In this document: piece after piece, positions 51,645 to 56,275 of the stretch
How the letters are laid out: every line of letters starts with the position of its first letter
Position numbering within the stretch: the stretch's first letter is position 1
Source: an uncultured Bacteroidales bacterium
GTDB lineage: Bacteria > Bacteroidota > Bacteroidia > Bacteroidales > FEN-979
Assembly (NCBI GenBank): GCA_903887775.1
Contig: CAISRB010000024.1
Location: forward strand, 62,001-126,000
Length of the DNA stretch: 64,000 nt
Direction: 5' to 3'
Notes under the pieces: generated by a model
The model's input: only the letters and a program-made list of their open reading frames with translations
Told to the model about the DNA's origin: nothing
The model's database searches: none
Translations under genes and position numbers: made by a program

Positions 51645-51721
51645 GGCCCCGTAGTTCAATTGGATAGAATGGCAGATTCCGGTTCTGTTGGTTGAAGGTT
51701 CGAGTCCTTTCGGGGTCACCA
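51645..51721 (+). tRNA. tRNA-Arg (anticodon CCG), CCA encoded
   Basis: GGCCCCGTAGTTCAATTGGATAGAATGGCAGATTCCGGTTCTGTTGGTTGAAGGTTCGAGTCCTTTCGGGGTCACCA folds as a cloverleaf; loop TTCCGGT gives CCG. Confidence 0.95.
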
Positions 51722-53074: not shown

Positions 53075-53482
53075 GTGAGTAAAGATTCTCAAAGGATAAC
53101 CCATAGCTGCTATGAATCAGCAGGGGAGATGCTCCTTGATAAGATTGCTGAGGTCAACAGCATTTTGATCAAACAGAAGGCCAAGACCGGTGAGACGGAA
53201 TCGTATCGGTTCTGGATCAAGGTTGCCGATGTGATGAAGTTCGCCTGGGATTATATTCAGGATGTTCATTGGATCTTAAGGAAAAACCAAATCCTTGAAG
53301 CAGAAAACAAGTGGCTTAAGGATTGGAATATTGAGTTGTCAAAGCGGCTTGAACACTATGAACTGGTAAGAGAGATGAAGCTTAATGGCCGTTTTGAGGA
53401 AATCGTGAAAAGTGTTGATGAAATGCTCTCTAAAAGAGAACAGCAATCTAACCATATTAAACAAACCCTACCTGATGAATGA
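53075..53482 (+). CDS. phage protein of unknown function
   Basis: 135 aa, GTG start, 8-bp overlap with the downstream helicase gene. Confidence 0.5.
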   Translation: MSKDSQRITHSCYESAGEMLLDKIAEVNSILIKQKAKTGETESYRFWIKVADVMKFAWDYIQDVHWILRKNQILEAENKWLKDWNIELSKRLEHYELVREMKLNGRFEEIVKSVDEMLSKREQQSNHIKQTLPDE

Positions 53483-55580
53483 ATTACCAGATAACCAGGG
53501 AATCGAACTGCCAAATATTGAAATACTTAATGAAGAAGAAGTCCTTCTGTTTGCAGATACAGCCCTGGTAGAGGCCGGTAAAAACCTGACCCGTCGGGGT
53601 GAGGTAATCAATCAGATTTGCGATCTGATCTTTAAAATGGATGATCCTATAAGGCAAAGCATATTTGTTGAGGAGATCTCAAAGCGACATAAAATCTCCA
53701 AAAAGGCAATCACGGACAGGATAAAGACCCTGAAAGATTCAGTCACTGTAATTAAGCAAGATAGCAAGGATGAATTTGAGGGATTCGGCGACATTGACAG
53801 AAAGACAGCACGGAAACTGGGATTCTTTGAACATCGCAATTGCTTTTACTTTTTAACGAAGGATGGCCCATTCAGGGCGTCAAATTTCATCATTCGCCCC
53901 CTGTTCCATATCTATTCAAAGACCGATAACAAACGCCTGGTCGAGATCATCAATGAGGACGATTATAAACGAACGATTGACATACCTTCCAAAAGCTTTG
54001 TCAGCATAGAACAGTTCCAGGCCGCCGTGATCAATGAAGGCAATTTCCTTTTCTTCGGCACAAAATTTCATTTTCTTAAGATCCTGGACCACATCGCCAA
54101 CAAGTTCCCGGTATGCAACGAGCTGAAAACGCTTGGCTGGCAGAGAGAAGGCTTCTATGCCTTTGCGAACGGAATCTTTAATGGTACCTGGCAACCGGTG
54201 GATGAATATGGAATTACAGAACATGCAAAACAAAAGTATTTCTCCCCGGCATATTCCCGTGTTTATAATGAGGTCCGTGAAGATGACGATGATTATGAAA
54301 GCGACCGCTATTTCATCTGGCAGCAGTCCCCGATCACCTTCGGGGAGTGGACCAAGCTCATGATGGATGTCTATGGACCCAATGCCAGAATAGCGATTGC
54401 CTTTGCCATAGCCACGGTCTTCAGGGATCTGATCTATGAGAAATATAAAATATTCCCTCACCTCTTTCTATTCGGTGAGAAACAATCCGGCAAGTCACAG
54501 CTTGCCTGGTCCTTGTCAAACCTATTCTTTAATAATATGCCCGCATTCAATTTAAGCTCAGGAACCCAGGTCGGCTTCCACAGAAAGTTATCCAGGATAA
54601 AGAACGCCCTATGCTGGTGGGATGAATACTCCAATGATATTGATCCCAAACGAATTCAGACGCTGAAAAGCGCTTTTGACGGCATGGGCCATGAAAAAGG
54701 GAAAATGACCAGGGATAATCGCACGGAGGTAACCAAAGTCAACGGTTCTTCCGTGATCAGCGGTCAATACCTGCCCACCGTTGATGACAATGCCCTGTTT
54801 ACCAGGTCCATCCTGCTTTCATTCATCCGGAAGATCTATACGGCAGAACAACTTGCACGCTATGATGAATTGAAAGGCTATGAGCAGCAAGGCCTGAGTA
54901 GCCTTATCGGAGAAATCCTTAAATACAGGAAAGAGATTGATCAGGGGTTCAGCATGATCTTTTCGGACCTGATGGATAAGATCAAAGATGAACTTACCCG
55001 GGAAGGAAAACAGTTTGAGGAACGGCTGGTAAGAAATTTCTGCATCATACTGGCTCCGGTTAAGATCGTACTTAAATCCATGCTGCCCCTTGACCTTAAC
55101 TTCACATTCGAGGAGATCTATGCCCAGGCAAAGATCATGATCACGGAACTTTCCGTGCAGATTTCTTCCAGTGAATCCCTTTCCAATTTCTGGATGATGA
55201 CCGAGTACCTGTTGGATAACAAGCTGATCGAAGCCGGTAAGGATTTTGAAGTGAAATCAATTGCCACAATCAAGGTGACTAATAAGAACTCACAAGCGGA
55301 AACACTGAATTATCCTGAACCAAAAGTGGTTCTGTTCATTCGTTTCTCAAGGATCCATCCTCTGTATATGGAAGGTCATCGGAAACAGTTTGGCAAAAAC
55401 GGTGTTGACCTGGTCAGCCTGATGCATTATATCAAGCATCACCCCAGTTATATCGGATCGATGAGCAGTTACCGGTTCGAAGATTCGATCAGCAGTTGCT
55501 TTGCATTTGATTATGAGACACTAAAGGTCAACCTGCAGCGGTTGCAACGCATTAACGGAGAAGAAGAACAGCCTTTTTAA
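53475..55580 (+). CDS. phage/plasmid-type primase-helicase ATPase
   Basis: Walker A LFLFGEKQSGKSQLAWSL; NALCWWDEYSND; NGSSVISGQYLP...DDNALFTRSILLSF. ATG 53475 (MNELPDNQG) preferred. Confidence 0.75.
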   Translation: MNELPDNQGIELPNIEILNEEEVLLFADTALVEAGKNLTRRGEVINQICDLIFKMDDPIRQSIFVEEISKRHKISKKAITDRIKTLKDSVTVIKQDSKDEFEGFGDIDRKTARKLGFFEHRNCFYFLTKDGPFRASNFIIRPLFHIYSKTDNKRLVEIINEDDYKRTIDIPSKSFVSIEQFQAAVINEGNFLFFGTKFHFLKILDHIANKFPVCNELKTLGWQREGFYAFANGIFNGTWQPVDEYGITEHAKQKYFSPAYSRVYNEVREDDDDYESDRYFIWQQSPITFGEWTKLMMDVYGPNARIAIAFAIATVFRDLIYEKYKIFPHLFLFGEKQSGKSQLAWSLSNLFFNNMPAFNLSSGTQVGFHRKLSRIKNALCWWDEYSNDIDPKRIQTLKSAFDGMGHEKGKMTRDNRTEVTKVNGSSVISGQYLPTVDDNALFTRSILLSFIRKIYTAEQLARYDELKGYEQQGLSSLIGEILKYRKEIDQGFSMIFSDLMDKIKDELTREGKQFEERLVRNFCIILAPVKIVLKSMLPLDLNFTFEEIYAQAKIMITELSVQISSSESLSNFWMMTEYLLDNKLIEAGKDFEVKSIATIKVTNKNSQAETLNYPEPKVVLFIRFSRIHPLYMEGHRKQFGKNGVDLVSLMHYIKHHPSYIGSMSSYRFEDSISSCFAFDYETLKVNLQRLQRINGEEEQPF

Positions 55581-55622: not shown

Positions 55623-55723
55623 CCTACGTCCTACAAAATAGATTATAATATTAAAAATCAATAATATAGAGTGTAGGAAGCTGTAGGATGTTGTAGGTAG
55701 CTGTAGGACTGTAGGACTGTAGG
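55623..55723. repeat. iteron-like TGTAGG array with AT-rich spacer
   Basis: CCTACG 55623 and CCTACA 55630 (inverted), about 35-bp A/T-rich block, then TGTAGG at 55672, 55682, 55692, 55702, 55710, 55718. Confidence 0.75.
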
Positions 55724-56014: not shown

Positions 56015-56275
56015 ATGTCTTCAATCACGATCAATCAGCTCATTAAGAATACCATTGAACAGAACCGGTATTCTAAACGGAAAGTGGCCACGGCTGCCGG
56101 CATTTCTGAAAAGACCCTTCGGAAGATTCTCAATTCCGATGACATTGACATTTCGGCGTTGTTCCTTCTCAGCCGTGCCATTGGCTTCAAAGTCACCATT
56201 GAATTCTCCAATGACCAGACCAGTATCAAGTTTCCATTAATCCAGATGGACCATGAAGATCCTGCTCAAGATTGA
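56015..56275 (+). CDS. XRE-like HTH protein
   Basis: LIKNTIEQNRYSKRKVATAAGISEKTLRKILNSDDIDISALFLLSRAIGFKVTIEF. Confidence 0.75.
   Translation: MSSITINQLIKNTIEQNRYSKRKVATAAGISEKTLRKILNSDDIDISALFLLSRAIGFKVTIEFSNDQTSIKFPLIQMDHEDPAQD

Follow-up and report, generated by a model that had tools for sequence, protein, structure and literature searches.

The closest described systems are the replication origins of SaPIs and PICIs. A SaPI origin consists of iterons directly downstream of the initiator gene, and the initiator recognizes it through its C-terminal domain (PMC7581432). In PICI and SaPI origins, two sets of iterons flank an AT-rich region, an organization that no other known bacterial replicon was reported to have (PMC6092414). 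The C-terminal domain of Cch2 specifically binds direct repeats downstream of its own gene, namely three copies of AAGTG; the putative origin is located downstream of cch2, and replication of SCC in vivo was not shown (PMC7581432).

The locus described here lies in a 64-kb stretch of DNA from an uncultured Bacteroidales bacterium (the window). It is located immediately 3' of a gene for an initiator homologous to SaPIbov1 Rep and Cch, and it combines two sets of iterons with an AT-rich region. The original prediction had described two CCTAC(A/G) sites, an A/T stretch and six TGTAGG copies with their spacings, starting 43 bp after a helicase gene, and this layout proved exact when the sequence was re-read. 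The helicase stop codon occupies positions 55578-55580, 42 bp intervene, and the first site begins 43 bp on, at 55623. The left arm of the window consists of two sites on the minus strand, the degenerate iteron CCTACG (55623-55628) and CCTACA (55630-55635), the latter reading TGTAGG on that strand. Left arms are also found among relatives, and by this comparison the two CCTAC sites are read as a second, inverted arm. The spacer at 55636-55671, the proposed unwinding element, is A/T at 32 of 36 positions (89%), and the richest 36-mer of the region (33/36) is equalled by only 4 windows in the 64 kb. On the plus strand, four TGTAGG copies at 10-bp spacing (55672, 55682, 55692 and 55702) form an inner module (55672-55707), and two more (55710 and 55718) form a right outer module (55710-55723), with 8-bp spacing from 55702 on. 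Start-to-start gaps across the six copies are thus 10, 10, 10, 8 and 8.

Altogether the window contains 8 TGTAGG on the plus strand and 7 CCTACA, and 7 of these 15 words are packed inside 94 bp at this locus. All three copies of the pattern TGTAGGNNNNTGTAGG in the window lie in the array, and 100 dinucleotide shuffles produced none. Recurrence of the array in many intergenic regions of the host, which would have spoken against an origin, was looked for in the whole 3.8-Mb genome; only one further place was found, on contig C4. This second TGTAGGGTTC array (C4:13640-13730, equivalent to L006:7640-7730) has a 10-bp period and no opposed arms. Its surroundings are a small island with a tyrosine integrase, where its neighbors are an HTH gene (91 aa) and a helicase-like fragment (218 aa); a similar array is present at G249:C203:10881 (L058). 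GC skew, which had been proposed as a marker of the origin, had no extremum at the array. Promoter and terminator scans at the array gave nothing beyond chance, and a tRNA was the sole match in an Rfam scan.

A tRNA-Arg gene is located at 51645-51721 (plus strand), and the left attachment site of a prophage lies at its 3' end (51705-51719): the 15-bp repeat TCCTTTCGGGGTCAC is found again at L009:14514, next to a tyrosine integrase gene (L009:13144-14349, minus strand). The element measures 45.8 kb and carries genes for a head-maturation protease, a large terminase, a tape measure protein, an endolysin and the integrase. It is a complete temperate tailed prophage of a Bacteroidota host, inserted at tRNA-Arg. 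A satellite, in the sense of a PICI as a phage-dependent island without the full virion genes, was rejected because the 45.8-kb prophage holds virion genes. Inspection by eye also identified a Vsr-like gene and, side by side, two genes resembling those of C5 cytosine methyltransferases in the prophage (L008:2411-5526), which may serve in anti-restriction.

The gene upstream of the array (53475-55580, plus strand) encodes a 701-aa protein from the ATG at 53475. Alignment and model place the AAA+ core at approximately residues 286-540 (54330-55094), with Walker A GEKQSGKS and Walker B WWDEY. A C-terminal winged-helix region, approximately residues 584-690 (55224-55544), is the proposed iteron reader on the basis of the model, domain identities and a residue scan. 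The 701-aa protein alone had no Pfam match, D5_N and primase domains included. DUF927 was matched by 4 of 17 relatives, and the annotation DNA primase or toprim protein is found in several relatives whose N-terminus is longer. A profile built from the 17 relatives gave one strong match among solved structures, SCCmec Cch (5dgk, E = 8.7e-9). The AlphaFold model (mean pLDDT 84.6) had its best Foldseek matches with Cch (5dgk, 4.1e-14) and the SaPIbov1 initiator (8tch, 1.0e-12). Profile and predicted fold both relate the window helicase to SCCmec Cch and SaPIbov1 Rep, which are self-loading initiators. The label "primase-helicase" given to it earlier is kept for the helicase and dropped for the primase, for which no domain was found in the window protein. 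A replicon of the P4 alpha or D5_N primase-helicase type was rejected, since there was no Pfam match and Cch and SaPIbov1 Rep outranked D5-type structures, and an iteron plasmid origin with a Rep_3-type initiator was rejected in the absence of a Rep_3 match among the neighboring proteins.

The protein ends in an acidic, SSB-like tip, EEEQPF (55557-55577), identified by alignment. A PF tip, mostly acidic, was present in 47 of 93 members of the helicase family versus 24 of 4038 other ORFs. The SSB tip recruits replication proteins. Another prophage protein, 313 aa long and antirestriction-like by eye, has a similar end, CQDLPF (L008:6835-7776).

Relatives of the helicase were collected by protein similarity from phage and plasmid records, IMG/VR, genomes and GTDB contigs, and were nearly all from Bacteroidota; collections were scanned with a six-row alignment, since the one with 17 rows was too diverse. 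We then searched near each helicase gene for over-represented hexamers of any sequence, with no word specified beforehand. A significant cluster was found downstream of the helicase at 50 of 67 protein-found loci, versus upstream at 6 of 74 (Fisher 7.6e-17), and in 53 pairs of equal length at 38 versus 4, with the reservation that many loci are interrelated and the counts overstate independence. The remaining 17 of the 67 relatives had no significant downstream cluster in this word-blind scan. The distance between helicase and array ranged from 11 bp to 3.5 kb, and the genes downstream of the array varied. The comparison with related prophages, suggested as a check on the window, thus revealed the same layout, with differing repeat words, behind the homologous helicases of many phages. 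In a relative on the Persicobacter plasmid JZB09-Plasmid11, the downstream cluster was absent and a tandem ACGTGT array was located far upstream (L074:1233-1400, E = 8e-8).

Scans that started from the DNA were also made. Three TGTAGG at 10-bp spacing were found in 47 IMG/VR contigs, 13 of which encoded a homologous helicase, mostly 25-53% identical; no helicase copy was detected in the other 34, some because the contig is cut. As a prospective test, a scan with TGTTGG identified 95 contigs, 12 of them with the helicase and the same kind of geometry (e.g. L281, L241). In the control with the reversed word, 17 viral contigs had arrays at the same spacing and none had the helicase, the control being imperfect in that three of its contigs contain ATGTAG arrays. 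Since 13/47 or 12/95 versus 0/17 is weak by itself, we rely on the contrast between downstream and upstream regions. When the two-armed pattern was added to the selection, the helicase was the commonest gene family at the resulting 78 loci, with 21 occurrences versus 10 for the next. When 396 genomes of the phylum were searched for three TGTAGG, one genome apart from that of the window was identified, few matches being found because prophages are patchy and words differ. Some TGTAGG arrays are located directly 3' of other helicase families, D5_N (L038:4315, L107:3025-3234) and VapE-like (L114:5947), which may reflect the selection by word or a word favored by several initiators. One family member with a TGTAGG array (L143) lies on a contig labelled Phycisphaerae, from a Planctomycetota MAG, pointing to a wider host range or to mis-binning.

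In its full form, the family pattern can be written as "< 8 < 8 <", an AT-rich spacer, "> 10 > 10 > 10 >", further sites, and "> 8 > 8 >". Altogether 52 clusters contained 156 same-strand gaps of 8-9 bp, versus 38 by random placement (maximum 56 in 500), and 109 same-strand gaps of 10 bp, versus 17 (maximum 31 in 500). Their outer pairs were divergent in 37 cases and convergent in 1, and first and last sites had opposite orientation in 49. The spacers, like that of the window, were AT-rich, with 75% A/T versus 56% in their surroundings, and exceeded them in 67 of 70 cases. ATCAA/TTGAT, which weakly resembles IHF sites, was present in 37 of the 70 spacers, versus 16 expected from base composition. 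Set against this pattern, the 10, 10, 10, 8, 8 series of the window is read as a compact form of the family layout, in which the inner module is fused to the right outer one.

The word itself was variable. We found TGTTGG in three P. gingivalis phages and TGTAGG in another (L069), TGTCCG in Microcystis phage Mea-Yong924-1, GTTGAG in Flavobacterium phage 1H, and TGTAGT, TGTAGA, TGTTGT and TGTAAT elsewhere among the relatives. The comparison indicates that spacing is conserved while the presumably recognized word evolves, and that the layout is a trait of the helicase family.

In order to relate word and helicase, we used a tree of the helicase core from which the C-terminus was excluded. On this tree, 6 changes between TGTAGG and TGTTGG were required, versus a mean of 14.4 in shuffles, none of which was as low. 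Words follow the helicase tree, yet with at least 6 switches between these two commonest words. In pairs with 85-95% core identity, the C-terminal region was 80% identical if the word was the same and 48% if it was different, while the 75-85% band had no C-terminal difference by word; these contrasts stem from few clades. Among all positions, residue 672 (55488-55490), where the second wing strand of the model begins, best separated the two words, with Asn in 15 of 16 TGTTGG versus 5 of 32 TGTAGG relatives. Independent pairs did not disagree at this residue, which had been chosen out of many positions as the best one, and were too few for significance (p 0.06-0.25). These data suggest that the C-terminal winged-helix region, or residue 672, may read the word.

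Taken together, the data make it very probable that the phage begins to copy its DNA at the repeats that follow the helicase gene. The original proposal, an origin made of iterons and an unwinding element, fits best, given that the helicase is kin to SaPIbov1 Rep and Cch by homology and that the layout recurs after homologous helicases. By analogy with relatives, the helicase (53475-55580) would bind the TGTAGG iterons, most likely via its C-terminal winged-helix region, assemble on the two oppositely oriented iteron sets, presumably as two hexamers, melt the AT-rich spacer between the arms, and load itself as the replicative helicase, and its SSB-like tip may recruit host proteins. We assign a probability of roughly 0.88 to this whole explanation, i.e. 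that 55623-55723 is the origin of the prophage and that the upstream helicase binds it, melts the spacer and loads itself.

The array might instead be an operator cluster, through which the helicase or a small HTH protein controls the genes from 55770 on, replication starting elsewhere. Initiators often regulate themselves, and the small ORFs that follow the array from 55770 onward do include an HTH protein (56015-56275). However, the constant neighbor of the arrays is the upstream helicase, not the variable downstream genes, an operator would not need two opposed arms and an AT-rich spacer, and no sigma-70-like promoter was found beside the array on the forward strand, with the reservation that Bacteroidota promoters differ from the sigma-70 type. 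We therefore consider an operator improbable. There is also only a slim chance that the element is a true origin whose iterons are read by a small phage protein or a host DnaA-like factor, which then recruits the helicase. The gene is surrounded by small proteins of unknown function, and direct binding in this helicase family is known from staphylococcal members only (PMC7581432); against this stand the predominance of the helicase beside DNA-selected arrays and the agreement of the words with the helicase tree.

That the array is a functionless tandem repeat, made by chance or slippage, could be argued from the 17 viral contigs with reversed-word arrays at the same spacing. This is contradicted by the conservation found: the same geometry, with several unrelated words, two orientations and an AT-rich spacer, lies beside helicases that are 25-35% identical, and the bases between repeats vary, which slippage does not explain. 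We regard its likelihood as practically negligible.

Beyond the origin assignment, we tentatively suggest, as a possibility rather than an expectation, that the outer (8-9 bp, opposed) and inner (10 bp) iterons are separate functional modules, e.g. for helicase loading and melting, that the word drifts jointly with the C-terminal winged-helix region, and that co-resident phages would thereby obtain separate replicons without cross-talk. With words that have switched naturally while the geometry was preserved, the origin-reading rule of self-loading helicases can be tested directly. The switches also provide a means of finding origins in Bacteroidota phages of the gut and mouth, for which none was found described in the literature searched. 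A search for TGTAGG and replication gave unrelated papers only, among the matches listed, and no description of these Bacteroidota phage origins was found in the small part of the literature covered.

Phage P4 (PMC6092414), with alpha and ori/crr, is likewise a replicon of the phage type that has repeats and an initiator helicase of its own, but unlike alpha the window protein matches neither D5_N nor a primase domain. SCCmec Cch is the closest solved structure to the window helicase, whereas Cch2, with its AAGTG repeats, belongs to another helicase family. The P. gingivalis phages, Flavobacterium phage 1H and Microcystis phage Mea-Yong924-1 share homologous helicases (24-30% identity) and the two-armed layout, and their records have no origin annotated in the stretches examined; in the P. 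gingivalis phages, unlike the window, the array lies 1.2-3.5 kb downstream and the word is TGTTGG (TGTAGG in one group). The SaPIbov1 rep-ori and Gram-negative PICIs have the same two iteron sets around an AT-rich region directly 3' of a homologous initiator, but here the carrier is a complete prophage, not a satellite, and the iteron word is TGTAGG. On the sequence comparisons above, we assign these loci to the PICI/SaPI type of origin, present in ordinary Bacteroidota phages. Because this organization is widespread in ordinary temperate Bacteroidota phages with a homologous initiator, it belongs to the helicase family and not to satellites.
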